A stretch of 20,451 nt of DNA from a virus: IMG/VR virus record IMGVR_UViG_3300034073_004520, positions 1 through 20,451 of that record. One strand, written 5' to 3'. The notes under the pieces are model-generated. The model made no database searches and was not told the DNA's origin. It saw nothing but the letters and a program-made list of their open reading frames with translations. A program made the translations under genes and the position numbers. The first letter of the stretch is position 1. Each line of letters starts with the position of its first letter. Of this stretch, positions 1,226 through 20,451 are shown in pieces.

Positions 1226-1253
1226 GATATAATTTTACTTAATACTTCGATAA

Positions 1254-5571: not shown

Positions 5572-6809
5572 ATTACTAATCCTTCTGGTGAAATCTTAAC
5601 TTGTTTTGTTTTATTTTCAAACACCAAATTTTTCTTATTAGTAATTCCTATAAACTGGAAACTGTAGTTTTCTTCTAAGAACTTTTTAGCCGCCAATTCT
5701 TGTTCGAAGGTTTCTGTCATTTTCACAACATCTTTCATTTTTTGCTTTACACCTTCTTTAATCAATTGTTGTTTGTTAGCATTTCTTTCTTTATTTTCTA
5801 AAATTTCTTTTTTAGAAACTTCGAAATATTTTGAAATCACTTTATCAACTTTTGATTCTTTGAAAATGCTATCGAAGATTGCTCCTTGACCTTCTCCCAT
5901 TTCAGGTTCTGTTTGGTCAATATCAACATCCATATCTGCTTGAATATCTTCAACTTCAGTGTCGTCAGTCATATCTTCACCATCCATATCGTCACCACCT
6001 AAATCTTCAGAATCGCTTTCGAATTTAGCCATAATGTCTTCTTTGTCCTCTTCAGATAATTCACCTAAATTTAAAGATGATAATACCATATTGATAACAT
6101 ATTTGATATCCTCAGAAGTCATTCCTTGTTCGTTATCTAACACTCTTACCTTTTGAGTTAATTTACCTGTAAGTTTTTGAATTGTTTTGAATGTAACTTT
6201 ATCTTCAGATGGTCCTTCCATATCAACGTCAACTTCAGTGTCAACGTCAACGTCTTCTCCACCCATGTCATCTTCAACACCCATATCCATACCCATATCA
6301 TCTTCTGCACCCATATCAGCTCCCTCATCACCACTTGGAACTGGAGATGGAGGTAATTCTGGAGATGGAACTGCAGGAGGTGCTACTGAAGCTGGTGCCG
6401 CAGGTGCTGCTGGAGCTTCAACTTCTGGTTTTGGAGTTTTTAAAACGAATTTTTTTTGTTCACCATAAAGTGATACTTCTTCTTCGTTTTCATTAACTCT
6501 GTTTAATTCACCAGCTAAAAGATTTAATCTTTTTAATGCTTGAGAATAGGAATTATAATATTTCCTATTTTTCATAGGCTCAATATAATCTGTTTCAGAT
6601 TCAGATATAGTTTTTTTGATAATATATCCTTGTCTCTCTTTAACAATTTCATAATTGTTACCATCGGCTAAAGAAAGAGAATATTGAGATTTAGCTGTTT
6701 CGTTTACAAGTTCAGGAAGAGCTTCGTTAAAACGAGCAATTTCCATAATTCTTCTTAATTTATCTTGTCCTTCGAGTTTTTCACTCCCTATAGGTTTTAA
6801 ATCTGCCAT
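5568..6809 (-). CDS. Large acidic Asp/Met/Gly-rich protein, possible scaffold
   Basis: I recognise no family. The 413 residues comprise an N-terminal helical region (about 1-120), a Pro/Ala linker (about 130-160), a low-complexity stretch built on repeated MGxEDDMG and DVD units (about 165-205), a helical section, a second Asp-rich stretch (about 270-310), and a basic helical C-terminal domain ending in a short beta-rich segment (FQFIGITNKKNLVFENKT). An elongated acidic centre with a folded basic end resembles scaffold or core proteins in general design, but no homology is claimed. It opens the closely packed 413/131/286/430/TerL group. No Shine-Dalgarno is seen; the 23-bp upstream gap is almost pure A/T. 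Confidence 0.72.
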   Translation of the reverse strand: MADLKPIGSEKLEGQDKLRRIMEIARFNEALPELVNETAKSQYSLSLADGNNYEIVKERQGYIIKKTISESETDYIEPMKNRKYYNSYSQALKRLNLLAGELNRVNENEEEVSLYGEQKKFVLKTPKPEVEAPAAPAAPASVAPPAVPSPELPPSPVPSGDEGADMGAEDDMGMDMGVEDDMGGEDVDVDTEVDVDMEGPSEDKVTFKTIQKLTGKLTQKVRVLDNEQGMTSEDIKYVINMVLSSLNLGELSEEDKEDIMAKFESDSEDLGGDDMDGEDMTDDTEVEDIQADMDVDIDQTEPEMGEGQGAIFDSIFKESKVDKVISKYFEVSKKEILENKERNANKQQLIKEGVKQKMKDVVKMTETFEQELAAKKFLEENYSFQFIGITNKKNLVFENKTKQVKISPEGLVI

Positions 6810-7978: not shown

Positions 7979-9766
7979 TTATGACATAGCATCGAAAATC
8001 TTTTCAATTTTATTTCCTGAACTTGCAATTATCCAATTTCCGCTTTCTTTTCTTAATTGAAGAGCATAATCTCTGAGTTTTTCAATATCTGTAACTCCCT
8101 CCTCAACTTTTTGATTTAACTTTTTTGCAAACTTTTGAAACCATCCAGGTCCATTATAGGATGCATATGCAAAATTGAAAAATAGTTTTGGGTCACTCAT
8201 AATAATACTTTTGGATTCATCAGAAAGATAACGATTTGCTGAATCAATAAACTGTGGTTCCATTATTTGAGAAATCAAGTCATATAATTTATTTTTCAAT
8301 TCAGGATTATCTTCTAACGCGTAACCATATTTCCAATTATTTTTGGCATCTTCAGCATCTATTAATCTCCAAAATTCAACTCCTGCAGAAGAATATTTTT
8401 CCTGTTGACCTTTTTTCCTATCCATCCCAAACATTGTTTCTCCACTATCACCAACCCACGCAAATTTACTTGGATTTTTTTCTTTCATGTTAGGATGGAA
8501 ATACCCACCTTCCAATTTATCCGTGATTGTCTCAACAGCATCCCTAAACTCCAAACTAGAATTTATTGGACCACTTTTAAATTCACGATTTTTCTGAACT
8601 TTATTTAAATCATTCTCAGTAAAATTCGATTCAATTAAATTTTCAATCAATGCCTTTAACTCATCAGTTCCGAAAACACCTGTTTGAGTCATGTTATTCT
8701 TCTCTTGGAATTTTTTTGTTGATTCCTCTGTTTCTTCTCCAAATTTTCCATCGATTCCCCATTTAGGTAATGAATGACCTAAAATCTGTAAACCTTTTTG
8801 TATTTCTTCAACATCAGCAAAATAAGGTGTTTTTTGTCCAGGTGTAAATTCATATTTCACATTGTTATCCATCATATCGTTTAAAGTTGTAAGATATGGT
8901 GATTTTGATATAATGTCTGAAATTTTCTCATCCCCACCTAAAGAATCCGACAACTTATCCAAAGCATCAATGAATGGTTGAACTGCATCAATCTGTTCGA
9001 ATAACGCAGGTTTTATCATTTTAGTTTCATCAATCTTTCGTTCAACCGAAAGTTCTTTGTCTTTTATCTTGGTTTTCTCATCAAACAATTTACCAATATG
9101 TCCTGACCTTCTCAAGTATTTGAAAACTAAATTCTCATAAGAGAATTCTCCATCTTTGTTAAGACCTGATTGACGATAGTCTTTCAACTTGTCTTTTATC
9201 TTTTTAAGATTTTCAACATCACCTTCTGACTTGGCATTATCAATTGCATCATCAATTTTATCAGTCCAACATTTTATCTTGGTTTTGAGAACTGACATAT
9301 CAATATTCTTATGTGTTTTGGTTGGTCTATGAATCCACTCATCATTCATCACGGAATAAACACCGTCACTATGAGACTCATCGGAAAGCCCTTGAGCATA
9401 TAACTCAACATCATATCCAAAGATTTTGATATTGTGTTTGTCGTTGAATAGTTTTTTCTTTAAATCAAAAAGTTCTTTATATAGTTCTTCTTGTTTACCA
9501 TATCTTTCGAAATCAATAATAACGTGTAAGTCAAAATCAGAATACTCTGACCAGTTGTAGTTTGCTAACGACCCCATTAGATAAATGTCATCAACAAAAA
9601 TATCATCCCCTAAATCGTCAATAAACTCTTCTGAGATACGCATAAGAGCTTTCCTAACTTTAGGGATTAATACTGCTTTTTTTGGGTCCTCACAATTTTC
9701 CCATACTTTGGGGTTGAGGGTTTCTTTAATAGAAAAACTATCTAAAATTTTTTTATAACTATCCAT
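7979..9766 (-). CDS. Nucleotidyltransferase + PG-binding + GH108-like muramidase fusion
   Basis: Three parts are visible in 595 residues. Residues about 30-150 carry the pol-beta-type nucleotidyltransferase signature: GS at 65-66, then D77 and D79 in YSDFDLHV, with a possible third acidic residue at D119 or E121. Residues about 318-378 look like a peptidoglycan-binding repeat (EEIQKGLQILG, GIDGKFGEETEESTKKFQ, TGVFGTDELK). Residues about 405-595 resemble the GH108 muramidase type, with LEGGYFHP (candidate catalytic E419) and GDSGETMFGMDR. The likely job of the C-terminal half is cutting peptidoglycan, as a virion-associated lysin or endolysin. The target of the nucleotidyltransferase is unknown. 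No holin, signal peptide or membrane segment is seen. A TATTTATA box lies four bases before the ATG. GH108 membership is a pattern match by eye. Confidence 0.8.
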   Translation of the reverse strand: MDSYKKILDSFSIKETLNPKVWENCEDPKKAVLIPKVRKALMRISEEFIDDLGDDIFVDDIYLMGSLANYNWSEYSDFDLHVIIDFERYGKQEELYKELFDLKKKLFNDKHNIKIFGYDVELYAQGLSDESHSDGVYSVMNDEWIHRPTKTHKNIDMSVLKTKIKCWTDKIDDAIDNAKSEGDVENLKKIKDKLKDYRQSGLNKDGEFSYENLVFKYLRRSGHIGKLFDEKTKIKDKELSVERKIDETKMIKPALFEQIDAVQPFIDALDKLSDSLGGDEKISDIISKSPYLTTLNDMMDNNVKYEFTPGQKTPYFADVEEIQKGLQILGHSLPKWGIDGKFGEETEESTKKFQEKNNMTQTGVFGTDELKALIENLIESNFTENDLNKVQKNREFKSGPINSSLEFRDAVETITDKLEGGYFHPNMKEKNPSKFAWVGDSGETMFGMDRKKGQQEKYSSAGVEFWRLIDAEDAKNNWKYGYALEDNPELKNKLYDLISQIMEPQFIDSANRYLSDESKSIIMSDPKLFFNFAYASYNGPGWFQKFAKKLNQKVEEGVTDIEKLRDYALQLRKESGNWIIASSGNKIEKIFDAMS

Positions 9767-9787: not shown

Positions 9788-10030
9788 TTATAGTTTTTTA
9801 TACTTGAACTTCTTTGAGATATCTGTTGTAAAAAATTTTCCTTGTGATTCTGCTCTTCTGAATTGAGTGTATGATTGGTGAGGAACCTCTTCATACTCAT
9901 ATTTGAGTCCGTTGTTAAATTCGACCACTAACTTTTTTGTTTCAGTGTCGTATTCAGTTTTTTTGATGTTGGAAGATTTGATTTCATTAATAATCTTCGT
10001 TCCTTTAATTTCTTCTTTAGTTATCGCCAT
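9788..10030 (-). CDS. KTSC-domain protein
   Basis: The 80-residue protein matches the KTSC domain pattern: SSNIKKTEYDTETKKLVVEF, then an aromatic YEYEEVP, a helix, and SQGKFF near the end. The family is named after lysyl-tRNA synthetase-associated copies and is common as a small stand-alone protein in phages and bacteria. Its biochemical role is not established. The start at 10030 overlaps the end of the upstream gene by 14 bases, so the two are probably translated together. Only 21 bases separate it from the muramidase fusion gene downstream. Confidence 0.82.
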   Translation of the reverse strand: MAITKEEIKGTKIINEIKSSNIKKTEYDTETKKLVVEFNNGLKYEYEEVPHQSYTQFRRAESQGKFFTTDISKKFKYKKL

Positions 10031-10319
10031 CGTTAAGGGGTGTTAATGAATCAATTTTATCCATTTTTGACTGAAAATAAAGTAAAAAATCTTCATCGGA
10101 AACTTCAAACCCATATTTACGTAATTTTTTCTTTGTCTCGTTCATCAAATGAGCAATGTCAGCCCTTAATTCGAATAATCTCGGGGGTCCTGTTCTTATT
10201 CTTTCAATACTTTTTTCAGTATGACCCAATTCTTTTAGAAGTAATCTGATTGCCAAATATTTTTCTAAAATTTCAGGAGTCATTGATAACTCCTCAATGA
10301 ATTTTTTCCATGTTTCCAT
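10017..10319 (-). CDS. Small helical protein with capsid-targeting-like N-terminus
   Basis: The 100-residue protein is almost entirely alpha-helical by appearance and contains RIRTGPPRLFELRADIAHL. I do not recognise its family. The N-terminus METWKKFIEELS resembles the MKTYQEFIxE capsid-targeting sequence of T4 internal head proteins, so packaging into the head is a possible role. The frame is open to an ATG at 10355, but that start would run into the divergent gene beginning at 10330; the ATG at 10319 leaves 10 bases between the two starts and is chosen. It heads the leftward operon. Confidence 0.72.
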   Translation of the reverse strand: METWKKFIEELSMTPEILEKYLAIRLLLKELGHTEKSIERIRTGPPRLFELRADIAHLMNETKKKLRKYGFEVSDEDFLLYFQSKMDKIDSLTPLNDGDN

Positions 10320-10329
10320 AGTTATAATT

Positions 10330-10899
10330 ATGAACCAAAACGAAACTTTTATCAATCACGGTAAAATTGATGTTAGTAATATATTAAAAATAATTGATGA
10401 AAATCGATTAGATTGGGATGAGTATACTGATAGACAAAAAAAATATAATTCGGAACATATTCATACTAAAACAATTCCAATAATTTTTGATAAATCGTTT
10501 AATTTTAATTCTTTCAAAATTTTTCCATCCAATCATTATGAACTTTTTCAAGAAGAAATTTCAACAATAGAAAACATTATAAAATCTAACACCAACGAAA
10601 GTGGTAAAATAATAAGAGCTCTACTTGTAAAGTTAACCTCAGGAAAATCAATTAAACCTCATGTCGATATCGCCGGAATTACACTCGTAGTCTGTAGAAG
10701 AATTCATATACCGATTCAGACAAACGATGAATGTTTTTTCACCGTAGGGGATGATAAAAGAAACCTGAAAACAGGTGAACTATGGGAAATTAACAACGAT
10801 AAAAAAACACATTCTGTTGATAATTTTGGTAATAGTGATAGAATCCATCTAATTGTTGATTGGGTTGAACAATCAATACTCGAAAAGTATGATATCTAA
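10330..10899 (+). CDS. Aspartyl/asparaginyl beta-hydroxylase-like dioxygenase
   Basis: The 189-residue protein fits the Asp/Asn beta-hydroxylase branch of the Fe(II)/2-oxoglutarate dioxygenases. The metal-binding HxD is H111-V-D113 in KPHVDIAG. The fold landmarks RIHIPIQT, GELWEINN and HSVDN (H161, the distal metal ligand) follow, and R171 in SDRIHLIVDW is placed to hold 2-oxoglutarate. In the family the enzyme hydroxylates peptidyl or amino-acid side chains using O2; the substrate here is unknown. An ATG also exists at 10297 but would overlap the divergent gene, so 10330 is preferred. It opens a four-gene rightward cassette and overlaps the sulfotransferase start by 11 bases. Confidence 0.82.
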   Translation: MNQNETFINHGKIDVSNILKIIDENRLDWDEYTDRQKKYNSEHIHTKTIPIIFDKSFNFNSFKIFPSNHYELFQEEISTIENIIKSNTNESGKIIRALLVKLTSGKSIKPHVDIAGITLVVCRRIHIPIQTNDECFFTVGDDKRNLKTGELWEINNDKKTHSVDNFGNSDRIHLIVDWVEQSILEKYDI

Positions 10900-11551
10900 A
10901 AAAGACAAATTAATATTTTTGATGCCGCCTAAAACAGCATCCACTTCTCTAACAAATACTTTGAAAAAATCGGGTATCTCTTTTTCATTTCCTAATCAAA
11001 TTACTTCCCCACTTTCTCATTTAAAATTAAACGAAATTATAAAAATTTATGACGTTCATAATTTGTCCGAATATAAAATATTACAAATAGTAAGGGACCC
11101 ATACCAAAGATTTATATCGGCATATTTTCAACTGATGAAAATAATTCATAATGTTGAAAACATAAAATTTAAAAATTACGAACTAAATCAATTCACCAAA
11201 CATCTATATGAATCAAAAAAATCTGAAAATTTTATAACTAATTTTTTTGGTGACACATCCTTTGTTGATAACAAAATCAAAAATAATGAAGGTTGGGGAG
11301 GAACAAGGTTGTTTGATACACAAATAAGTTGGAAAAATTTGGATTGTGAAGTCACCTATTTCAAGTTAGAAGATATCAGTAGAGATGTGTCCCCAATATC
11401 AAACTTCATTAACTTACCTGTTAATAGTTTTGATTTCCTTAATTCAACAGGGAATAAAAATCACTCAGAATTGATTGATGAAGAAATGAAAGGAATTATT
11501 AATGAGTTATTCTATGATGATTTCAAGTCATTTCAATATTTAATACTATGA
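10889..11551 (+). CDS. Sulfotransferase-family protein
   Basis: The 220-residue protein has both PAPS-binding signatures. The 5'-phosphosulfate loop is PPKTASTSL (residues 13-21), and the 3'-phosphate motif is IVRDPYQRFISAYF (about 67-80, with R69 and S77). The family transfers a sulfuryl group from PAPS to sugar or lipid hydroxyls; cell-surface glycan is a plausible acceptor but nothing shows which. An earlier ATG at 10853 would overlap the hydroxylase gene deeply; the ATG at 10889 starts MISKKDKLIFLMPPK and puts the loop at the usual place near the N-terminus. The stop overlaps the next start as ATGA. At 220 residues it is compact, without signal peptide or membrane anchor, so it should be cytoplasmic. 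No PAPS synthesis gene is seen in the window. Confidence 0.85.
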   Translation: MISKKDKLIFLMPPKTASTSLTNTLKKSGISFSFPNQITSPLSHLKLNEIIKIYDVHNLSEYKILQIVRDPYQRFISAYFQLMKIIHNVENIKFKNYELNQFTKHLYESKKSENFITNFFGDTSFVDNKIKNNEGWGGTRLFDTQISWKNLDCEVTYFKLEDISRDVSPISNFINLPVNSFDFLNSTGNKNHSELIDEEMKGIINELFYDDFKSFQYLIL

Positions 11552-12144
11552 CAGTTTCCATTGAAAATATTATTAGGGAGTTTCTTAATGAAGTAAGGAC
11601 TCAACAAAAAAGTGAATTTAATCGTGGAATGGAGCATAGAATCTACGCATCGAAATATAATCCTGATAGATTATTCAAAGTTGGTGACGAGGGTGTTTTA
11701 CATTGGGTTGAGGTATTCCGTTCAAATCCTAATATTTTTGCAAAAGTTTTTAGAACAGGTAAAATAAATGATGTAAAAAAGGGTGGGACTTACTATGCAG
11801 AAATTGAAAAATTACAGACAGATAGAGTTATAAAAGAATGGGAACAGATTGAAGAAAAATTAGAAGAGATTGGAATAATTGATTCTGAGGACGGTGCATT
11901 CGGTCGAGATATTACTGACATTTATACAAACCACGGACATGACCAAAAAACTATCTCTGAAATCGCCAAGAGATTAAACGAATACGATAAAGACACATAT
12001 AATATTTTTATCAAGTATTTTAAACTTTTCAAAGATTGTGAAAAGGCTATTGAAAAAGTTGTGGGCCATGAAACTTTGGTTGATGCTCACCGTTATAACT
12101 TTGGCTATAGTTCCGATGGCAAACTTAAATGTTTAGACATTTAA
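11548..12144 (+). CDS. Kinase-fold-like protein of unknown target
   Basis: The 198-residue protein looks like a small protein-kinase or aminoglycoside-kinase fold. RIYASKYNPDRLFKVGD could carry the ATP-binding lysine. EIEKLQTDRVIKEWEQIEE would be the following helix. The C-terminal VDAHRYNFGYSSDGKLKCLDI resembles a catalytic loop (D, then N three residues after H) and a metal-binding Asp in CLDI. The chain ends right after that Asp, so most of the C-lobe is absent and activity is uncertain. The N-terminus (IENIIREFLNEV) is an amphipathic helix like those of two other proteins in the window. It is coupled to the sulfotransferase by an ATGA overlap and is followed two bases later by the phosphoesterase. 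The kinase reading is inference. Confidence 0.68.
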   Translation: MTVSIENIIREFLNEVRTQQKSEFNRGMEHRIYASKYNPDRLFKVGDEGVLHWVEVFRSNPNIFAKVFRTGKINDVKKGGTYYAEIEKLQTDRVIKEWEQIEEKLEEIGIIDSEDGAFGRDITDIYTNHGHDQKTISEIAKRLNEYDKDTYNIFIKYFKLFKDCEKAIEKVVGHETLVDAHRYNFGYSSDGKLKCLDI

Positions 12145-12146
12145 TT

Positions 12147-12770
12147 ATGAATGACAATTCTCGGCGTATAACTCACATTTCGGACACTCACGGTTATCAT
12201 CAAAATATTAAATTACTTGGCGGAGACATCTTAATTCATTCTGGAGATATTGTAGATTACAAAAGAAAAATCCCGACTAATGAAATTATTGAATGGATAG
12301 ATAACACCCCCTATGAATATAAAATCATTGTTTTGGGTAATCATGACGAAGAATTATCAAATTTTGATTTCCCAGATAAAATCATCTTACTAAATAATAA
12401 ACTAATTAATGTCCTTGGTATTCAATTTTATGGGATAACTTCTACCATAAAAGAACCCAACGCTCGTATATGTTTTGGGGAATTAAGTGAACAAGAAATA
12501 AAAAACGAATTACAAGATGAAAGTTTTGATATTCTAATCACACATGGTCCCCCCAAAGGTATATTGGATAATAAATTTGGTATTAATGTTGGTTCAGTTA
12601 GTTTATTAGATTATGTGAAAAAACACAAACCAATATATCATTTATTTGGTCACGCTCACCATTTGAAAGGAACATACTATGACGGGTCAACCACGTTTTC
12701 AAACGCATCGATTGTTTATAAACTAGCGGAGGAAATTGTAAACGGTGTTCCTTTCAATTTTACTTTATAA
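12147..12770 (+). CDS. Calcineurin-like metallophosphoesterase
   Basis: The 207-residue protein shows the full dinuclear metallophosphoesterase set: D13 and H15 in ISDTHG, D34 in HSGDIVD, N65 and H66 in VLGNHDE, H133 in THGPP, and H169 and H171 in FGHAHH. The family cleaves phosphomono- or phosphodiesters; the short, compact form resembles cytosolic enzymes acting on nucleotides or small phosphoesters, but the substrate cannot be read from sequence. The ATG at 12147 follows the previous stop by two bases and is preferred over an ATG at 12129 inside the previous gene. It is the last gene of the rightward cassette and runs directly into a hairpin terminator. Confidence 0.9.
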   Translation: MNDNSRRITHISDTHGYHQNIKLLGGDILIHSGDIVDYKRKIPTNEIIEWIDNTPYEYKIIVLGNHDEELSNFDFPDKIILLNNKLINVLGIQFYGITSTIKEPNARICFGELSEQEIKNELQDESFDILITHGPPKGILDNKFGINVGSVSLLDYVKKHKPIYHLFGHAHHLKGTYYDGSTTFSNASIVYKLAEEIVNGVPFNFTL

Positions 12771-12772
12771 AA

Positions 12773-12801
12773 AACCCCCACCGAAGTGAGGGTTAGTTTT
12801 T
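12773..12801. terminator. Two-way intrinsic terminator between convergent genes
   Basis: The arms AACCCCCAC and GTGAGGGTT pair with one mismatch around a CGAA loop (TTCG on the other strand). T-tracts follow on both strands (GTTTTT on plus; TTTTTT on minus), so it can end both the phosphoesterase transcript and the Hsp20 transcript. The stem sequence is nearly repeated in the terminator after clpC. Confidence 0.88.
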
Positions 12802-13198
12802 AAAGGAGACTAATTCTTTTCTTTTCTTGTTTCTTGTAATTAGGAACGAATACCGTTAGTAATCCATCTTCTATTGTAGCTTCGATTGATGAAGCATCAT
12901 AATCATCTCCAATTTTGAATTGTTTTGAAACAGTTTTTTTCTTTTCTTCATTATTCAACTTGTATGTTCTTTTACCTTCAATATGAAGAACTCCACCTTC
13001 CATTTCAACTTTAAGGTTGGACTTATTAAATCCAGGTGCATCAAAGAACAGGTATGCTCCGTCCTTGGTGTGGTTGATTTCATAAAGTTCACCTTCTGAA
13101 TCATTTTTTACCAGCGTAGTGCTGTAATTGTAATTTCTTCCTCTGTTGTTGAAGAAAGTGTCAAATAATTCGTTCAATTCTGAATTTCCGTAAATCAT
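12800..13198 (-). CDS. hsp20: Small heat-shock protein (Hsp20/alpha-crystallin)
   Basis: The 132-residue protein is an ATP-independent holdase that binds unfolding proteins and keeps them for refolding or degradation. The alpha-crystallin domain (about 45-128) shows AYLFFDAPGFNKSNLKVE, GGVLHIEGKR and the family signature A-x-x-x-D-GLL in ATIEDGLLTVFVP. A short N-terminal arm (NELFDTFFNNRGRN) precedes it. The C-terminal KKRISLL holds an I-x-L in place of the usual I-x-I/V oligomer tail motif. Marine T4-like phages are known to carry such genes. It is divergent from clpC across a 201-bp region with two palindromes, suggesting shared control. The minus-strand upstream region has a TATAAATA box 28 nt from the ATG and no Shine-Dalgarno. 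Confidence 0.93.
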   Translation of the reverse strand: MIYGNSELNELFDTFFNNRGRNYNYSTTLVKNDSEGELYEINHTKDGAYLFFDAPGFNKSNLKVEMEGGVLHIEGKRTYKLNNEEKKKTVSKQFKIGDDYDASSIEATIEDGLLTVFVPNYKKQEKKRISLL

Positions 13199-13226
13199 AA
13201 TTTTTAATTTTTTGTTTTAAATTTAT

Positions 13227-13234
13227 TATTTATA
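13227..13234 (-). promoter_or_regulatory. TATAAATA box upstream of hsp20
   Basis: In the hsp20 sense this reads TATAAATA, identical to the T4 late-promoter core, 28 nt before the ATG at 13198. It is the only one of the six octamers in this orientation relative to the nearest gene; on the plus strand it reads TATTTATA like the others. Function is inferred. Confidence 0.38.
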
Positions 13235-13301
13235 TTTGTAGTAATCAAGTTCAATGCCACTTGATTCTTTCTGTGAATTTTTCAGTTCTTTTCTTAACCA
13301 A

Positions 13302-13316
13302 ATGTCATTATGACAT
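13302..13316. promoter_or_regulatory. Palindrome 1 in hsp20/clpC control region
   Basis: ATGTCATTATGACAT is a perfect inverted repeat with 7-base arms around one central base. It lies between the two divergent chaperone genes. It has the size of a binding site for a dimeric regulator and shares the TGTCA/TGACA core with palindrome 2, 31 bp away centre to centre. Confidence 0.6.
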
Positions 13317-13333
13317 ATAAAAAAAATAAAACG

Positions 13334-13346
13334 TGACAATTTGTCA
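13334..13346. promoter_or_regulatory. Palindrome 2 in hsp20/clpC control region
   Basis: TGACAATTTGTCA is a perfect inverted repeat with 6-base arms around one central base. It ends five bases before the TTTG of the putative clpC promoter, so a bound protein would touch RNA polymerase or block it. The core is related to palindrome 1. Confidence 0.6.
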
Positions 13347-13351
13347 AAATG

Positions 13352-13383
13352 TTTGGCAGTGTCTGATTTTTGATACATCTTTG
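13352..13383 (+). promoter_or_regulatory. Putative Bacteroidota-type promoter of clpC
   Basis: TTTG (13352-13355), 20 bases, then CATCTTTG (13376-13383) matches the Bacteroidota housekeeping pattern TTTG-N19/21-TAnnTTTG except for C in place of the first T. The start codon at 13400 would leave a leader of roughly ten bases. Confidence 0.5.
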
Positions 13384-13399
13384 TAAAAATTAATTAACT

Positions 13400-15415
13400 A
13401 TGAACGATTTGATGGACGACGACGAAACAATGAAAAGTAAGAAACAAAAACAGAATTCAGACAGTAGCACTCCTGTCTTAGATAACTTCAGTAGAGACTT
13501 GAATAAACTTGCAGAACAAGGTAAGTTGGACCCTGTTATCGGTAGAGATAGAGAAATACTCCGTATTGCTCAGATTCTTTCCCGTCGTAAGAAAAACAAT
13601 CCAATTATTGTTGGAGAACCGGGTTGTGGTAAGACCGCTCTTGTTGAGGGTCTCGCAATCAAAATTGTGAATGGTGAGTGTCCAAGAAATCTTGTGGACA
13701 AAAGAATTGTAAACCTTGACTTAACTTCTGTAGTTGCGGGAACAAAATACCGTGGTCAATTTGAAGAAAGAATGAAGGTGATTATCGAAGAGCTTCAAGC
13801 AAATCCAAATATCATCGTATTCATCGATGAAATCCATACCCTTGTTGGTTCAGGTAACTCAGCTGGTTCTATGGATGGTTCAAACATTTTCAAACCAGCA
13901 TTATCTCGTGGTGAACTTCAATGTATTGGAGCAACCACTCTCGATGAGTTCCGTAAGAACATTGAAAAAGACGGAGCACTAGAACGTAGATTCCAAAAGG
14001 TAATTGTTGAACCTTCATCAATTGCTGAAACAATCCAAATTCTTAAAAACGTTCGAGAGAAGTATGAATCTTATCACAAGGTTTCATACACAGACGAGGT
14101 TATCGAAACTTGTGTTAAACTTGCAGACCGATACATCACTGACCGTGAATTCCCTGATAAAGCATTTGACATCTTGGACGAAGTTGGAGCTCGTATGCAG
14201 ACCGAACTAAAAGTTCCACCTGTAATCGAAGACCTTAAGAAGAAAGCATCTGAAATCAAACAACAGAAAATTGATGTTGTTAAGAAGCAGAACTACGAAC
14301 AAGCTGCTCAACTTAGAGACAAAGAGAAAAAATTGTTAGACAAACTTGAGTCTGAAAAGACCAAGTTTGAAGAACAACTTATCAAAGACAAACAAAAGAT
14401 TAGTCTCGAGGATGTGTATGATGTTGTTTCTAACATGACTAAAATCCCAGTGAGCAAAATGAGTCTTGATGATTCAAAAGCACTTATCAATTTGGATAAA
14501 GAATTGATTGGTAAAGTAATTGGTCAAGACGCTGCGGTTATCAAAATTGCGAAATCAATTAAGAGAAATCGTCTTGGTATCAAAGACCCAAATCGTCCAA
14601 TCGGTTCATTCGTATTCCTTGGTTCAACAGGTGTTGGTAAAACTCACTTGGCCAAACAATTAGCGAAAGAAATGTTTGGCTCTGAAGATTCACTTATCCG
14701 TGTGGATATGTCTGAATATCAAGAGAAACACACAGTATCTAAATTGGTGGGGGCTCCTCCAGGTTATGTCGGATACGAAGAAGGGGGACAGTTAACTGAA
14801 AAGGTTAAAAACAAACCATATTCTGTTATCCTATTCGATGAAGTAGAAAAGGCTCACAAAGATGTGTTCACAGTGTTACTCCAAATCTTAGATGATGGTC
14901 ACGTTACCGATAGTCTTGGACGTAAGATTAACTTCAAGAATACATTGATTATCCTAACTTCTAACTTAGGTGTTAAGAAACTTCAGGACTTCGGAACTGG
15001 TATCGGTTTCTCTAACAGCACCTACGGAAACGATGAGGCTAAAAAACAAGTCTTGATGAAAGAGATGAAGAATTTCTTCTCTCCTGAATTTTTGAATCGT
15101 ATTGATGATACCATCGTATTCAATTCACTAACTCCTGAGGATATCAAGAAAATTACTGAGATTGAATTGAAAAAACTTGTATCTCGTCTTGATGAGATGA
15201 AATATACAATTACCTACGATGAGACCTTGGTTGACTACTTGGCTAAAATCGGATATGATGAATTGTATGGAGCTCGCCCTTTGAAAAGAGCAATTCAAGA
15301 CAAAGTTGAAGACCTTTTATCTGAAGAAGTATTGACAGGTAAAATGATTGAGAACAAATCCTATCAAATTAAAGTAGATGGTGAAGAAGTCAAAGTCACA
15401 AAAAAAGGTAAGTAA
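13400..15415 (+). CDS. clpC: ClpC-like AAA+ unfoldase lacking the N-domain
   Basis: This is a hexameric two-ring unfoldase that threads proteins, normally into ClpP. Its 671 residues carry NBD1 with Walker A GEPGCGKT (72-79), Walker B IVFIDEIH (139-146) and arginine fingers in ALERRF; a UVR-type middle motif around 292-322 (KQNYEQAAQLRDKEKKLLDKL); and NBD2 with Walker A GSTGVGKT (408-415), Walker B VILFDEVE and finger FLNRIDD. An IGF tripeptide (535-537) sits where ClpP-docking loops lie. The double Clp-N adaptor domain of about 145 residues is absent; instead there is a charged tail of about 22 residues before TPVLDNFSRDL. Codon choice looks richer in C-ending codons than the neighbours, suggesting later acquisition or high expression. 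No clpP is seen, so host ClpP would be the partner. Confidence 0.95.
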   Translation: MNDLMDDDETMKSKKQKQNSDSSTPVLDNFSRDLNKLAEQGKLDPVIGRDREILRIAQILSRRKKNNPIIVGEPGCGKTALVEGLAIKIVNGECPRNLVDKRIVNLDLTSVVAGTKYRGQFEERMKVIIEELQANPNIIVFIDEIHTLVGSGNSAGSMDGSNIFKPALSRGELQCIGATTLDEFRKNIEKDGALERRFQKVIVEPSSIAETIQILKNVREKYESYHKVSYTDEVIETCVKLADRYITDREFPDKAFDILDEVGARMQTELKVPPVIEDLKKKASEIKQQKIDVVKKQNYEQAAQLRDKEKKLLDKLESEKTKFEEQLIKDKQKISLEDVYDVVSNMTKIPVSKMSLDDSKALINLDKELIGKVIGQDAAVIKIAKSIKRNRLGIKDPNRPIGSFVFLGSTGVGKTHLAKQLAKEMFGSEDSLIRVDMSEYQEKHTVSKLVGAPPGYVGYEEGGQLTEKVKNKPYSVILFDEVEKAHKDVFTVLLQILDDGHVTDSLGRKINFKNTLIILTSNLGVKKLQDFGTGIGFSNSTYGNDEAKKQVLMKEMKNFFSPEFLNRIDDTIVFNSLTPEDIKKITEIELKKLVSRLDEMKYTITYDETLVDYLAKIGYDELYGARPLKRAIQDKVEDLLSEEVLTGKMIENKSYQIKVDGEEVKVTKKGK

Positions 15416-15420
15416 AACAA

Positions 15421-15452
15421 AACCCTCACAGAAATGTGGGGGTTCTTTGTAT
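15421..15452 (+). terminator. Intrinsic terminator after clpC
   Basis: Arms AACCCTCACA and TGTGGGGGTT pair over 10 bp with one G-T wobble around a GAAA loop, then CTTTGTATTT follows. It begins five bases after the clpC stop. The T-tract is imperfect, so some readthrough into the metalloprotease-like gene is likely. Confidence 0.8.
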
Positions 15453-15457
15453 TTATA
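15450..15457 (+). promoter_or_regulatory. TATTTATA box before the metalloprotease-like gene
   Basis: TATTTATA lies in the sense strand three bases before the GTG at 15461, just after the clpC terminator. It is one of six such start-adjacent octamers. The role is inferred. Confidence 0.4.
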
Positions 15458-15460
15458 TAT

Positions 15461-16219
15461 GTGAGAGATTTAATCAAGAAAATATTAAAAGAAGAAATTA
15501 AAGACGGAAAGGTTATCTGTAATGGATGTGGGTGGTCGTGGGATTTATCTGATGGTGGGGATGATAAATACATGTGTCACAAGTGCGGTCATGATAATAC
15601 TCCCAAACCACAATCTAACTTTCAAAAACTTTTGGAAAAATTCAAATCAACTTTTCCTAAAGAATTCCATAATACAGTAGATGAAATAGGTCAATTCGTT
15701 ATAAAATATATTAAAGACCACAATTTCAATGTAAAATTTTTAAACTCATGTTATGTGGGATACTCTGGTGTGAGAACAAAAAATGAGATAATCATTTGCT
15801 CACCGAATTTAATGACCACGTTTGGTGACTTCATTTATACAATATTTCATGAGATAAGACACGAAGAACAAATTCGTGACCTCAAGATGGATAATCCTTT
15901 ATCAGAATACGATTTAGGGGATTTTGAAAGGTTATCTGAAAAGTATTGGGAAATGGAGCTTGATGCGGACAAATTTGCAAAACAAATGATTGCCCAAATT
16001 GTAGTCAATTTGAAATTACCAATGGATATATCTAAACAAAATTTCAAACTATCAGAATATGTCGAAAACTATCCTTCTATGTCTAAAATGATTAGACAAC
16101 AGTTACAAGCAATTGTCATGAGTATTATACAAATGAAAAAATCGGGTGAGGATTTTACAGATATATCCGACCACCCGATGGTAAAAAAACATTTAGATAA
16201 GCTTGAGGATTTTATTTAA
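15461..16219 (+). CDS. Zinc-ribbon plus HExxH metallopeptidase-like protein
   Basis: The 252-residue protein joins three elements. An N-terminal amphipathic helix (MRDLIKKILKEEI) is followed by a four-cysteine zinc ribbon, C20NGC23 and C39HKC42, containing GWSW and ending CGHDN. A gluzincin-like catalytic segment has IFHEIRHEEQ (HExxH at 130-134) and a downstream WEMELDADKFA, whose acidic residue could be the third zinc ligand as in ImmA/IrrE-like and related peptidases. The frame is open to an ATG at 15434, but that lies inside the clpC terminator; the GTG at 15461 gives an N-terminus matching other genes here and is chosen. The target is unknown: prohead processing, host regulators and misfolded proteins are all possible. 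The stop overlaps the stop of the convergent M20 gene. Confidence 0.78.
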   Translation: MRDLIKKILKEEIKDGKVICNGCGWSWDLSDGGDDKYMCHKCGHDNTPKPQSNFQKLLEKFKSTFPKEFHNTVDEIGQFVIKYIKDHNFNVKFLNSCYVGYSGVRTKNEIIICSPNLMTTFGDFIYTIFHEIRHEEQIRDLKMDNPLSEYDLGDFERLSEKYWEMELDADKFAKQMIAQIVVNLKLPMDISKQNFKLSEYVENYPSMSKMIRQQLQAIVMSIIQMKKSGEDFTDISDHPMVKKHLDKLEDFI

Positions 16220-17058
16220 AAAACCATTCTACTTTTCCAATTTTGTTCTACGGCTTTTTTGTAATGTAACTTATTTCCTAATAGTTCAATCATTTTTCTA
16301 CCCATTTCAACTCCGTTGAATACGTCCTCGACAACCACATATTCATTCCTACTGTGGTATTCATAATATCCGATAGAAAAGTTAATACAAGAAAAATTAA
16401 ATTTACCTCTCAAAGCATAAACGTCTGTGTATGGGTGGACCATATAATCCATATCTTCATTAACCATACCTTCGGTTAAAACCTTATCACAAACTTCAAA
16501 GAATTCGGAATCTCTGTCAAATAAAACCTGACCAAAACATTTTTCGGTAATCATCCAGTTTTCAGGTGCATCAAATTGAATTCCATAACCAACGTTTTCA
16601 AAAAACTTTGGGTCTGATTTATTTGAACCATGACATCCTGTTTCCTCAGAAACAAAGAACGCCGCCTTTAAATTTGGAAGTTCTTTCAACAATGTTAAAC
16701 ACGCAAAAACACCACATTTATCATCACCACCAATACCAACAGGTAGCCCGATGTTATCATATGCTTTCAATGATAGTTTATCCTCACCTTGAGCATTCGG
16801 TAAAAATTCTTCGTGAATGTTTAGATTGCAAATTTCGTGCACAGTATCAGTATGAGATATAACACAAGGAAAATAAAAGTCTTCAGGAAGTTCTTCTGAT
16901 TCTTGTTTAGTTGCATAAACATTATTATGTTGGTCTTTATAAAAGGATATGTTGTTTTCAGTTAACCAATTGGTTAAATATTCAACCATCAAATCTTCTT
17001 TATAAGTTTGGGTAGGAACACTTAGAACCTCTTTTAAAAAATCTATATTTTTTGTCAT
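16216..17058 (-). CDS. M20-type (PepT-like) zinc peptidase, short form
   Basis: The 280-residue protein shows every metal ligand of a two-zinc aminopeptidase: H69 and D71 in ISHTDTVHE, D112/D113 in GIGGDDKCG, E138/E139 in VSEETGCHG, D163 in QFDAP and H235 in YYEYHSRN. The pattern is closest to the M20/PepT group, which trims short peptides in the cytoplasm. Typical PepT is about 400 residues; only about 70 residues separate D163 from H235, so the lid/dimerisation domain of about 110 residues appears to be missing, as if reduced to a bare catalytic core. M42 or M28 relatives are possible alternatives. A clear Bacteroidota-type promoter lies immediately upstream and implies an almost leaderless mRNA. 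It is convergent with the metallopeptidase-like gene. Confidence 0.88.
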   Translation of the reverse strand: MTKNIDFLKEVLSVPTQTYKEDLMVEYLTNWLTENNISFYKDQHNNVYATKQESEELPEDFYFPCVISHTDTVHEICNLNIHEEFLPNAQGEDKLSLKAYDNIGLPVGIGGDDKCGVFACLTLLKELPNLKAAFFVSEETGCHGSNKSDPKFFENVGYGIQFDAPENWMITEKCFGQVLFDRDSEFFEVCDKVLTEGMVNEDMDYMVHPYTDVYALRGKFNFSCINFSIGYYEYHSRNEYVVVEDVFNGVEMGRKMIELLGNKLHYKKAVEQNWKSRMVF

Positions 17059-17062
17059 ATCA

Positions 17063-17094
17063 CAAAGATACGAAAAAAATTATATTTCGTCAAA
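17063..17094 (-). promoter_or_regulatory. Bacteroidota-type promoter of the M20 peptidase gene
   Basis: On the minus strand TTTG (17094-17091), 20 bases and TATCTTTG (17070-17063) match the Bacteroidota housekeeping consensus. The ATG at 17058 follows only four bases later, which would make the transcript leaderless or nearly so. Confidence 0.62.
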
Positions 17095-18129
17095 ACTAAA
17101 TAATGTCGGTTGATAAAGTAAATTATAGAAATTTTCTTCAGATAACTTCAAACTTTTCTCTTTCAAAGCCTTTTGAAGTTTGACTTCTATTTTGTTTGGA
17201 TTTTTTTCAAATCCTATTACTTTAAATCTAACCTCTTTTGGTTTTTTTGGTAACGGATACCATGTCTCAAAGATGAATTTTTTCAGAATTCTTTCGGTCA
17301 TTTTCAAATATGAATCTAAATCAAAACCTTCTCGTTCGAAGTCATCGGTAATACTATCTAAAATCTTGTCTAAGTTCCAAGAAACTGCTTTATTAAAAGA
17401 AACATCATCGAAATTGTCTGAATCTTGATATTCATAAGAGTTTTCATACCACCCACCAAGATTACCTGGATTTTCTTCAAAAATTTTTTTCAACAAACCT
17501 TTGATTGGCAAATGGAATGAATTTGTTCTGATATACCACATTATTAAATTACCTACTGTAGTTTTAATACGGTCATCGGAAACAAGTTCGAAATCAAATT
17601 TTTTGAAATAATTATTAACTTCTTGATTTATTCCGTTTCTCGCAGTGTTTATCATTTCAGAATTTTTTTCAGTATGAAAATCATTGAGAATTCCTTTTGT
17701 GATAAAGTTAAAGTTATCATACATTTTATGTGCTAACCCTTTTCGAAATTCTTCATCATCTAAATTGAAATTTTTATTATATATCAATCTTGATATTTGT
17801 CTGAGTTTATCCACATTATCCTCATCAAAACTAACAAATACGTCATAACCTTCTAAAAAATTTTCTTTTACTGTATAGTAATCAATCATTTCATAATTGT
17901 CCCAAGGGCGATTGATTACTCTAAAGAACCAAGCATCGTTTTCATCCAAACCCAATAAGTTGAAAAGATTATCTTCACGTTCTAAATCTAAATAAATCAC
18001 ACTCTGACCTCTGTTACCAGAATTAACCTTAACTTCATCGATACTAGGGTCTATGTCACTCAATTCATAACCGTTGATATCACCCTTGACAAAATTTTTA
18101 AGTCCATAAAAAGTATCCAATATTTCCAT
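17080..18129 (-). CDS. Unknown protein, 349 aa
   Basis: I recognise no family. The protein is soluble in appearance, acidic in its N-terminal half, and mixed alpha/beta. Features include DENDAWFFRVINRPWDNYEM (about 62-81), a helical central region with KMYDNFNFITKGILNDFH, a hydrophobic segment NLIMWYIRTNSFHLPIKGLL, and a basic C-terminal part with TWYPLPKKPKEVRFKVIGF. No catalytic signature, signal peptide or membrane span is evident. A TATTTATA box ends five bases before the ATG at 18129, the same arrangement as other phage genes here, which is the best argument that it belongs to the phage. Its stop lies 21 bases before the M20 gene, and the M20 promoter reaches into its 3' end. Confidence 0.7.
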   Translation of the reverse strand: MEILDTFYGLKNFVKGDINGYELSDIDPSIDEVKVNSGNRGQSVIYLDLEREDNLFNLLGLDENDAWFFRVINRPWDNYEMIDYYTVKENFLEGYDVFVSFDEDNVDKLRQISRLIYNKNFNLDDEEFRKGLAHKMYDNFNFITKGILNDFHTEKNSEMINTARNGINQEVNNYFKKFDFELVSDDRIKTTVGNLIMWYIRTNSFHLPIKGLLKKIFEENPGNLGGWYENSYEYQDSDNFDDVSFNKAVSWNLDKILDSITDDFEREGFDLDSYLKMTERILKKFIFETWYPLPKKPKEVRFKVIGFEKNPNKIEVKLQKALKEKSLKLSEENFYNLLYQPTLFSFDEI

Positions 18130-18134
18130 GTCTA

Positions 18135-18142
18135 TATAAATA
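18135..18142 (-). promoter_or_regulatory. TATTTATA box before the 349-aa gene
   Basis: On the minus strand TATTTATA ends five bases before the ATG at 18129. It is the rightmost of the six octamers; none is found from here to the right edge. Confidence 0.4.
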
Positions 18143-18151
18143 CATTTTTTG

Positions 18152-18182
18152 TTTGGAATTTACCTATTTATTCTTATCTTTG
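18152..18182 (+). promoter_or_regulatory. Bacteroidota-type promoter of the tmRNA gene
   Basis: TTTG (18152-18155), 19 bases and TATCTTTG (18175-18182) match the Bacteroidota housekeeping promoter exactly. The mature tmRNA 5' end at 18203 lies about 20 bases downstream, leaving a short 5' leader for removal by host RNase P. Confidence 0.75.
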
Positions 18183-18202
18183 TATTCGTTCATTGAAATT
18201 AT

Positions 18203-18600
18203 GGGGATGTCCAGGTTTTGATTGCAATACTTAGGGTATGCAGGCACGTAGTCAGAATTCATCTATGACTTAAATCTATGGTGAAGAAAATTAACTGGCA
18301 ATACTTTTGCTAAAATGGCTACTTTAGGCTTAATCGCTGAAGAAGCTCCAGTTGTAGCTTAATTTAAGTAACAACTACTCGGGTCGGTTAGGACATATAA
18401 CCTAGGAACAGAAGTCCAATATACGGGTCACAGGTCGGAGCTCGTTTAAAATAATTTCGAGACCAGGTTGTTTGTGAGTTTGGTTCCCACATATATCAAA
18501 CTTAATATTTCGTAACATTGAGAAACAATGTTGAACTAAACGTGTAGTCTGTCTGCGTTAATGTTGTAAGACGCGGGTTCGATTCCCGCCATCTCCACCA
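18203..18600 (+). ncRNA. ssrA: tmRNA (trans-translation RNA), one-piece
   Basis: This RNA frees ribosomes stalled on broken mRNA and adds a degradation tag. The ends form a tRNA-like acceptor: GGGGATG (18203-18209) pairs with CATCTCC (18590-18596) with one G-U, followed by A and an encoded CCA. The T-arm is GCGGG-TTCGATT-CCCGC (18573-18589). Pseudoknot PK1 is visible: AGTCA (18250-18254) with TGACT (18266-18270), and TTCATC (18258-18263) with GGTGAA (18280-18285). Eleven bases later the resume codon is GGC at 18297, opening a 21-codon tag that begins GNTFAK and ends EEAPVVA, with TAA at 18360-18362. The tag is longer than the roughly 9-10 residues common in Bacteroidota and ends VVA, not LAA. 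The 5' D-analog region (GGTTTTGATTGC) departs from the usual TTCGAC. The alanine-identity G3-U wobble of tRNA-Ala falls at the observed G-U pair. Confidence 0.95.
18297..18362 (+). other. tmRNA tag reading frame (resume codon to stop)
   Basis: The frame from GGC at 18297 runs 21 codons to TAA at 18360. The resume codon was placed from its distance of 11 bases after PK1, as in known tmRNAs. Because the other two frames close within a few codons after PK1 (TAA at 18292 and at 18311), this is the only frame able to give a tag of normal or greater length with a small-hydrophobic end. Confidence 0.72.
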
Positions 18601-18641: not shown

Positions 18642-19025
18642 ATGGGTAAGATTTGTGATATATGTAGTAACAAATGTTGGGGTAATCCAGGTTACCATGG
18701 TAGTTGTTGTTCAATCGAAGATAGAGATTTCATAATTGGACCTCATTTAGATTCTGAAGAATTCTTGGATAGGTTGAATGAAAAATTTGGTAGAGATTTT
18801 GAGTTCGATGAAATCTTCTATAGTTTCGAATCAGGAAAAAATATTTTACAGGATAAAACAACTTGGCAGAATCCTGAATCTTATCCCGCACTAAAAATAA
18901 ATTTCTCAAGTATAAAAAAACCTTGTATTTTTTATAACACACATCTTAAAGCATGTTCAGTTTATGAAATTAGACCTGAAACTTGTCGTAGTTACATGTG
19001 TGATTATTTAAAAGATAACATTTGA
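18642..19025 (+). CDS. YkgJ-like cysteine-cluster protein
   Basis: The 127-residue protein has an N-terminal cysteine group, C5, C8, C12 and C22-C23 (CDICSNKCW, then GSCCSIED), and a C-terminal group, C95, C105, C115 and C120, within KPCIFY, ACSVYEIRPETC and YMC. This is the pattern of the YkgJ family (UPF0153), predicted to bind zinc or iron; the enzymatic role is not settled. No signal peptide is seen. The ATG lies two bases after the T-tract of the tmRNA terminator, so no room exists for a normal separate promoter and leader; it is read either by tmRNA readthrough or from a promoter inside the tmRNA gene. It could belong to the phage or to a host chromosome; YkgJ-like proteins occur in both. 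Confidence 0.85.
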   Translation: MGKICDICSNKCWGNPGYHGSCCSIEDRDFIIGPHLDSEEFLDRLNEKFGRDFEFDEIFYSFESGKNILQDKTTWQNPESYPALKINFSSIKKPCIFYNTHLKACSVYEIRPETCRSYMCDYLKDNI

Positions 19026-19202: not shown

Positions 19203-20451
19203 ATGAAAAAAAACATTTTATTTTTAGTCGCGATGATTAGCATGACAATTGTATCATTCGCACAAGTCAAAGGAAAAATTGTAGACTCAAAAACCAAGGA
19301 AACATTACTCGGTGCTACAATCACACACAAAGGGATGATTAATCATTCAACAACATCCGGCAAGGATGGAACCTTCTCACTTAATGGAGTTAAAGAAGGG
19401 GATACTTTAATAGTATCTTTCTTAGGTTATGAAGTTTTAGAAATTCAAGCAAAAAATGGCATAAACATTCTTCTCAATGAAAAATTTACACAACTCAGTG
19501 AAGTTGTTATAACGTCTGGAATCATTGACGTTGTAAAAATTAGAGAAACCCCTGTAGCTTCTTCAACAATCGGACCACTTGAAATTTCGTTAAAAGTCGG
19601 AAACATGGAATTCCCTGAAGTTATGAACAGAACTCCAGGTGTTTACGCTACGAAACAAGGGGGTGGATATGGTGATTCCCGTGTCAACTTGAGGGGGTTT
19701 GACCAAAGAAATACTTCTTTTTTAATCAATGGACAACCTGTCAATGATATGGAAAATGGATGGGTTTACTGGTCCAATTGGCAAGGTTTGACTGATGTTG
19801 CGAGTGGAATCCAAATCCAAAGAGGTTTGGGAGCTTCTCGTTTAGCAGTCCCATCCGTTGGGGGAACTATTTCTATCTTTACAAAAGCTGCTGAAAAAAG
19901 TAAAGGTGGTTCGGTTCAACAAATGATTGGAAATGATGGATATACCAAAACATCACTAGTATATAATAGTGGAAAAAACGAAAAAGGATGGGCAACGTCT
20001 TTACTGCTTTCAAGATGGGCAGGAGATGGTTATGTTTATGGAACTTCAGGAGAAGGTTGGACATATTTCGCATCAGTGGGGTATAAACCCGAAAATTCCA
20101 AACATTCCATAAATCTTTCAATTTTAGGTGCGGGTCAGTGGCATCATCAGAGAGATTCTTGGGTTTCTATCAGAGATTACATGAACTTTGGTAAAAATCA
20201 TAAGGAAGGAATCGATAGGAGATGGAATACTGATGCAGGTTTTTTAAATGGTAGAGAGTTTAATATGAGAAGAAACTTTTACAACAAACCTTTAGCAACC
20301 CTAAACTGGGATTGGAACATTAACGGTAAATTGAAACTTAATACTTCTTTATATGGTTCTGCTGGTAGAGGGGGTGGAACAGGTCCTCGTGGTGCTAATT
20401 TTAGAAATGCAACCACAGATTTTTACCCATTCAATAAAGATTTAACACAAC
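19203..20451 (+). CDS. TonB-dependent outer-membrane receptor (5' part)
   Basis: The 416 codons in the window encode the N-terminal part of a Bacteroidota TonB-dependent receptor, a 22-stranded barrel that imports metal chelates, glycans or peptides using TonB energy. A signal peptide (MKKNILFLVAMISMTIVSFA, cleavage likely before Q) is followed by a carboxypeptidase-regulatory-like beta domain (VKGKIVDSKTKETLLGATI, then FLGYE), then the plug domain with EVMNRTPGVYA, RVNLRGFDQRN, NGQPVNDME and GGTISIFTK, then early barrel strands with aromatic-rich segments. Full proteins of this type are about 800-1000 residues, so about half is missing to the right. Substrate cannot be told. This is a host-type gene; its presence beside phage genes needs explaining. 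Confidence 0.93.
   Translation, partial: MKKNILFLVAMISMTIVSFAQVKGKIVDSKTKETLLGATITHKGMINHSTTSGKDGTFSLNGVKEGDTLIVSFLGYEVLEIQAKNGINILLNEKFTQLSEVVITSGIIDVVKIRETPVASSTIGPLEISLKVGNMEFPEVMNRTPGVYATKQGGGYGDSRVNLRGFDQRNTSFLINGQPVNDMENGWVYWSNWQGLTDVASGIQIQRGLGASRLAVPSVGGTISIFTKAAEKSKGGSVQQMIGNDGYTKTSLVYNSGKNEKGWATSLLLSRWAGDGYVYGTSGEGWTYFASVGYKPENSKHSINLSILGAGQWHHQRDSWVSIRDYMNFGKNHKEGIDRRWNTDAGFLNGREFNMRRNFYNKPLATLNWDWNINGKLKLNTSLYGSAGRGGGTGPRGANFRNATTDFYPFNKDLTQ

Follow-up and report, generated by a model that had tools for sequence, protein, structure and literature searches.

Why should a phage carry its own transfer-messenger RNA (tmRNA), and why should that gene lie within a few kilobases of a protein unfoldase and a peptidase? 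The question is raised by IMG/VR virus record IMGVR_UViG_3300034073_004520, of which a stretch of 20,451 bases was analysed (this whole stretch is called the window). The contig is that of a phage, with a T4-type portal gene (2-1234, minus strand) and a T4-type terminase gene (TerL; 1265-3022, minus strand), followed by head, lysin-like and KTSC genes and then by a proteostasis cluster. The original prediction suggested that five parts of this cluster, an Hsp20 chaperone, a ClpC unfoldase, a zinc metallopeptidase-like protein, an M20-type peptidase and a complete tmRNA, play a joint role. All five parts were located on the phage DNA, and about 140 IMG/VR loci were compared as relatives. From these comparisons, it appears rather probable, if far from certain, that the phage owns a pathway that couples trans-translation to tag-directed proteolysis by ClpC and ClpP.

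Conservation of the cluster in related phages

A scan of IMG/VR seeded with ClpC returned 80 loci from one phage lineage, on records of up to 321 kb. The gene order portal, TerL, lysin, KTSC, ClpC, M20 is common to those loci that are long enough. The T4-type portal and TerL genes on this virus contig, and the recurrence of its synteny in 80 relatives, show that the cluster sits on phage DNA and reflects neither host DNA nor chance. For the cluster, host contamination or a chimeric contig is ruled out by this repeated order, with portal and TerL present where the contig reaches them. The lineage probably consists of large T4-like phages with aquatic Bacteroidota as hosts.

A profile built from phage tmRNAs detects tmRNA in 60 of the 80 loci, and in 49 of the 50 with room for it, defined as 7.5 kb or more of sequence beyond the start of clpC; the sole miss, L073, contains an insertion and stops at 7.5 kb. 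In these loci, tmRNA always shares its strand with ClpC and lies 4.0-7.7 kb (median 4.7 kb) after the start of clpC. A scan that used the M20-like peptidase as seed instead finds ClpC in 77/77 loci with room and tmRNA in 59/59, though many of its records overlap the ClpC-seeded set, so that it represents a change of seed rather than a fully independent sample. Gene content was counted in the 43 ClpC-seeded loci whose flanks are long enough on either side. All 43 hold ClpC, KTSC and the M20-like peptidase, and 42 hold tmRNA; less frequent are a 349-residue protein (34 loci), the metallopeptidase-like protein, which carries an HExxH motif (19), and Hsp20 (11). Given the low counts of the last two, the predicted set of five reduces to a near-invariant core of ClpC, M20-like peptidase and tmRNA, with Hsp20 and the HExxH protein as optional accessories. 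The co-occurrence in related phages that the original prediction would lead one to expect is thus found for the three core genes, which are neither scattered nor of host-chromosome origin, and does not extend to the other two.

For contrast, 20 virus records of 45 to 276 kb, some of them fragments, which had been selected because they carry a TonB receptor, were searched whole. Only G103 contains tmRNA, ClpC (65% identity) and ClpP; G107 has ClpP only, and the other 18 have none of these genes. G103 itself belongs to the lineage and shows the lineage gene order on a reading of its DNA. The huge phages LR756504 and LR756508 carry tmRNA, ClpC and ClpP-family genes far apart, the ClpP match of LR756508 being weak.

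The tmRNA gene and its tag

The tmRNA gene (ssrA; 18203-18600, plus strand) is indeed complete. It matches Rfam family RF00023 with 110 bits against a gathering threshold of 47, is called by ARAGORN, and has tRNA-like ends, a G3.U70 pair and an encoded CCA. Related records score above the RF00023 cut-off in 54 of 80 cases. Among 54 distinct phage tmRNAs, 53 retain the G3.U70 alanine identity pair, and pairs of the acceptor and T-stems covary, including acceptor pairs 4 to 7. ARAGORN was rejected as a test for tmRNA because it called only 14 in 59 related loci (L002-L060), that of L042 with a wrong tag; Rfam and the profile of phage tmRNAs were used instead. ARAGORN also shortens several tags in the lineage. 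As most lineage tmRNAs escape this program, surveys based on it will underestimate the number of phage tmRNAs. The possibility that the tmRNA gene marks an integration site was set aside, the lineage being T4-like; an integrase was sought only by reading the open reading frames (ORFs) of the window.

The tag frame (18297-18362, plus strand) encodes GNTFAKMATLGLIAEEAPVVA followed by a TAA stop and is conserved in relatives. The tag given by ARAGORN, AEEAPVVA, is only the last eight residues of this 21-residue peptide. Relatives have tags of 21 or 22 residues that follow the pattern G-N-x-x-x-K-[ML] ... GL ... V-x-A. Substitutions per codon are highest at the third position of the frame (0.27, vs 0.18 and 0.125 at the others), and the pooled ratio of nonsynonymous to synonymous substitution rates (dN/dS) is 0.42, whereas the other two frames give 0.64 and 1.12; since the pairs compared are related rather than independent, the ratios serve as support, not as a significance test. 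None of 55 tags ends in LAA. Most end in V-x-A, and four have no terminal alanine (L009 and L034 end in TI, L030 and L033 in S). Readable host tags from Bacteroidota end in YALAA, and one Balneolota-like tag ends in RLAA. Judged by its residues, the C-terminus of the phage tag is non-host.

The tmRNA partner SmpB was sought, together with ClpP and a prohead protease, in 35 larger lineage records, 21 of which hold at least 30 kb downstream. SmpB is present in three of the 35, about 0.5 to 0.9 kb from tmRNA in two of them, and one SmpB scored against the NCBIfam curated cut-off reaches 157 vs 130 bits. All three SmpB-bearing records have a tag that ends in GLVRQDELVNVA. Other members of the lineage must use host SmpB or carry the gene beyond the contig.

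ClpC, ClpP and the M20-like peptidase

The unfoldase (13400-15415, plus strand, 671 residues) is a ClpC-type protein with two AAA rings, a UVR-type middle domain and a D2-small domain (Pfam AAA_2, AAA, AAA_lid_9, ClpB_D2-small and UVR). Its best solved relative is Staphylococcus aureus ClpC (759 bits). The Walker, pore-loop and Arg-finger motifs are intact and are conserved in relatives. No Clp_N domain appears among the Pfam families shown for the protein, and its alignment begins at residue 147 of S. aureus ClpC, consistent with a missing N-domain. On this evidence, the window encodes a ClpC core that lacks the N-terminal adaptor-binding domain, and not a full ClpC. The N-domain of ClpA and ClpC binds adaptors, and ClpA deprived of this domain still reads a C-terminal ssrA tag through its pore. 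By analogy, the phage ClpC would have to act free of adaptors, via the pore.

The original prediction ascribed to this protein an IGF loop able to dock host ClpP. The loop is present (GIGF, residues 534-537) and conserved: an [IVL]GF docking loop occurs in all 80 readable ClpC rows (IGF in 53, VGF in 26 and LGF in one), one further row being unreadable. Host ClpP as the partner is no longer the simplest idea, because relatives encode their own ClpP downstream of clpC. This gene is found in 18 of the 35 larger records (about 172-196 bits), and these 18 come from the 21 whose downstream sequence measures 30 kb or more; its distance from clpC is 13.8 to 31.7 kb. The phage ClpPs keep the Ser-His-Asp region (motifs GMAASMGS, TMLHQ and RD[LF]W, with the triad assigned by alignment to host ClpP) and match solved bacterial ClpP structures. 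They score 236 bits against the ClpP model PRK14514, vs 71 bits against a model of the ClpP-related head-maturation protease, and fall below the NCBIfam equivalog cut-offs. A separate T4-type prohead protease (Peptidase_S77) is encoded in 31/35 records; this and the difference in bit scores rule out the lineage ClpP as the capsid maturation protease. Maximum-likelihood phylogeny places the phage ClpPs, along with the ClpPs of G103, G107 and LR745206, in a single well-supported branch that is distinct from host Bacteroidota ClpP; owing to long branches, the deeper nodes are uncertain. That the window's own phage encodes a ClpP as well is suggested by relatives such as L003 and L005, whose ClpC proteins are 89% and 92% identical to that of the window.

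The third core protein (16216-17058, minus strand, 280 residues) matches PHROG 4191, annotated as 'peptidase' (3.5e-32). The metal ligands that had been predicted for it are borne out by the HTD, GGDDK, EETG, FDAP and YxYH motifs, which are conserved among relatives. Its assignment to the M20 family is less secure, as the Pfam M20 score lies below the gathering cut-off (20.9 vs 24.6 bits); with this shortfall set beside the PHROG match and the conserved ligand motifs, we call the protein M20-like. It is too short for the usual dimerisation domain.

A proposed pathway and its alternatives

The reading that we favor, with somewhat more confidence than doubt, is that these genes form a trans-translation and proteolysis pathway owned by the phage. 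Transcription of the phage tmRNA would start at a host-type promoter, with a late phage promoter (see below) probably driving a second round, and the RNA is predicted to be charged with alanine. With SmpB from the host, or from the phage in the few relatives that encode it, it would enter ribosomes stalled on broken mRNAs, add its tag of 21-22 residues to the unfinished product and free the ribosome. If the tag is a ClpC degron, it would be read by the N-domain-less phage ClpC, and if ClpC docks phage ClpP, the tagged product would be threaded into that protease. The M20-like peptidase may trim the resulting peptides. The presumed benefit would be the recycling of ribosomes in a cell full of degraded mRNA. 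A stronger version is an orthogonal channel, in which phage tmRNA outcompetes host tmRNA and a phage-specific degron is read only by phage ClpC and ClpP, so that both rescue and proteolysis are controlled by the virus; this extension is tentative, and we regard it as rather doubtful.

Several observations weigh against the phage-owned pathway. Strong synteny within one lineage can come from shared descent. The dN/dS of the tag frame is moderate at 0.42, and the pairs behind it are not independent. Most relatives (32/35 records) are without SmpB. ClpP lies 14-32 kb away, with none in the window, which ends before its expected place, and no ClpP match appears in three of the 21 records that reach 30 kb or more downstream. 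The parts can also work apart, as LR745206 and LR756502 have ClpC and ClpP with no tmRNA above the cut-off, and LR756511 has tmRNA without ClpC. Finally, tags that end in valine-alanine may be read by host ClpXP, as with the LVA-type ssrA variants of Escherichia coli.

The last two points would suit a phage that possesses two independent tools: ClpC and ClpP, which destroy chosen host or phage proteins via other signals, and a tmRNA that serves for rescue only, its tag being left to host ClpXP. Some huge phages do carry one tool and not the other, and a terminal alanine preceded by a small hydrophobic residue, as in the phage tag, may be acceptable to host ClpX. Within the lineage, however, ClpC, M20-like peptidase and tmRNA almost never separate, and the LAA ending of readable host tags is absent from all 55 phage tags. 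Separate tools are an unlikely explanation.

The proposal of the original prediction, that the phage ClpC delivers its substrates to host ClpP, can be extended to a ClpC that reads the tag but borrows its protease. This arrangement would accommodate the conserved [IVL]GF loop, the presence of ClpP in host Bacteroidota genomes and the three records with ample downstream sequence that show no phage ClpP. We consider it improbable, as the other 18 hold a phage ClpP that occupies its own well-supported branch of the tree. Least credible of all is a shielding or decoy tmRNA, whose tag, poorly read by host ClpXP, would spare useful unfinished phage proteins while ClpC served as an unfoldase in assembly or remodelling: a non-LAA tag in all relatives read, a host-type promoter that could allow early expression and the position of clpC next to head and lysin genes would fit, but the docking loop is kept in every readable ClpC row and most phages with enough sequence retain their own ClpP, which a pure unfoldase would not need.

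Promoters and host

A Bacteroidota sigma-A-type promoter precedes tmRNA (18152-18182, plus strand; TTTG at 18152-18155 and TATCTTTG at 18175-18182), and another precedes the M20-like gene (17063-17094, minus strand), with the strict pattern in relatives. The full pattern TTTG-N17-22-TAnnTTTG is found upstream of M20 in 38/71 relatives and of tmRNA in 26/55, compared with 1% of random stretches; for the -7 box alone, the counts are 64/71 and 49/55, compared with 9%. In Flavobacterium, the sigma-A -7 box has the sequence TAnnTTTG (PMC9723704). These promoters, the ClpP family and a TonB receptor encoded after tmRNA point to a Bacteroidota host.

Further upstream of tmRNA is TATAAATA (18135-18142, plus strand), which is similar to a T4-type late promoter. 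Of 55 relatives, 47 have the corresponding motif NATAAATA in the 150 nt that precede tmRNA, and a limit of 120 nt gives the same count, whereas 4% of random 120-mers contain it. It also occurs upstream of Hsp20 in 13/17 relatives and of the 349-residue protein in 24/49 (random 4%), and is enriched upstream of the counterparts of ORF 5568-6809. The motif resembles a T4-type late promoter, or else a phage-specific promoter or regulator site; the late-promoter reading is tentative, as NATAAATA is rare upstream of portal and TerL.

Accessory and neighboring genes

The HExxH protein (15434-16219, plus strand) shows, by inspection, the HExxH and ELDAD motifs and a CxxC zinc ribbon. No Pfam family scores above cut-off, while FHE[IML]RH and E[LM]DAD are conserved among its relatives. 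Its AlphaFold2 model has a mean predicted local distance difference test score (pLDDT) of 73.8, and the best PDB matches are HExxH metallopeptidases at a non-significant E of about 0.25. The zinc ribbon (CGWSW...CHKCGHDN, residues about 27-55) is missing or shortened in many relatives, and by this pattern it is a detachable module. The second accessory, the small heat-shock protein Hsp20 (12800-13198, minus strand), is well supported by Pfam HSP20 (54.8 bits vs a cut-off of 20.8). The 349-residue protein (17080-18129, minus strand) lies between M20 and tmRNA and is divergent from tmRNA; its place is conserved. AlphaFold2 yields a confident model (mean pLDDT 89.9) with no significant fold match in the PDB.

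Downstream of tmRNA, a small Cys-rich protein (18642-19025, plus strand; weak Pfam CxxCxxCC) is an optional feature, whose gene occupies the matching place in several relatives. It is followed by the TonB-dependent receptor (19203-20450, running off the end of the window), with carboxypeptidase-regulatory and plug domains. Relatives of the receptor occur in at least 404 IMG/VR stretches, the best 80 of them at 64-77% identity, and some are on records above 250 kb, beside replication-type genes. In L448, a complete TonB receptor of 849 residues, 43% identical over the aligned part, comes after tmRNA and the Cys-rich gene, and L278/G103 of the lineage carries one elsewhere. With these two examples, an origin of the receptor from host DNA was set aside, and it is probably phage-borne. 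Possible roles of such an outer-membrane receptor are receptor masking, superinfection exclusion or nutrient uptake.

Three further features of the lineage were observed. A variable cassette at 10297-12770, encoding an Asp/Asn hydroxylase, a sulfotransferase, a 198-residue protein and a metallophosphoesterase, is shared by few relatives. In ORF 7979-9766, a nucleotidyltransferase-like N-terminal domain is fused with a peptidoglycan-binding domain and with a C-terminal region that lacks annotation; the nucleotidyltransferase-like domain is the conserved part, with ~248 residues in most relatives. Lastly, short N-terminal helices (LIKKILKEE, IIREFLNEV, LLLEGKKE) precede unrelated domains in many lineage proteins, among them 15434-16219, 11548-12144 and 10017-10355 in the window and ORFs of L448 and L506. 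By analogy with the internal proteins of T4, these helices may be a capsid-targeting signal that is cut by the prohead protease.

Relation to known systems

The phage system resembles bacterial trans-translation by tmRNA and SmpB in its tRNA-like ends, G3.U70 pair, tag frame with stop and RF00023 match, and in the SmpB of some relatives. It differs in that it is phage-encoded, has a long tag of the form GN..K[ML]..GL...V.A instead of one ending in YALAA, and mostly borrows its SmpB. Phage-borne tmRNA is not new in itself: tmRNA and SmpB are known from huge phages (Al-Shayeb 2020, PMC7162821), and tmRNA from mycobacteriophages and Bacillus phage G (PMC4131195). The lineage shares with these phages the tmRNA and, in some members, SmpB, but here tmRNA is a fixed feature of a single T4-like lineage, is tightly linked to ClpC and the M20-like peptidase, and is accompanied by ClpP at another site in the genome. 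Searching the text of the huge-phage paper (PMC7162821) for Clp gave no match.

The ClpC-ClpP machines of S. aureus and Bacillus subtilis share with the phage proteins the two AAA rings, a short UVR-type middle domain, the D2-small domain, the G-hydrophobic-F loop and the ClpP partner. The phage ClpC, unlike theirs, is without an N-domain, and adaptors of the MecA, McsB and ClpS types could not bind in the usual way. The ClpP-like head maturation proteases of other phages belong to the same fold family, but the lineage ClpP is nearer to true ClpP and an S77 protease is also present. PepT-type M20 peptidases and the members of PHROG 4191 (Cellulophaga phage phi38:1 and Klebsiella podoviruses) have the same metal-ligand motifs, whereas the lineage protein is short, has no room for the dimerisation domain and is linked to ClpC and tmRNA.

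In the literature searched, outside which most subscription journals fall, we found neither this tag nor a conserved unit of tmRNA with phage ClpC and ClpP described. The apparently new element is the conserved coupling of phage tmRNA with ClpC, ClpP and a non-host tag, phage tmRNA and SmpB being known already. Why phages carry tmRNA is a standing question, and in this lineage the molecule comes with a distinct tag and is tied to both an unfoldase and a protease. Because the linkage is tight and lineage-wide, four genes and one peptide are enough to put the purpose of a phage tmRNA to the test. If the proposed pathway is correct, the tag and its protease would be a natural viral pair of degron and protease, and a possible orthogonal degradation tool for Bacteroidota. 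It would also be evidence that large phages reach beyond the supply of translation components and seize ribosome rescue and proteolysis.

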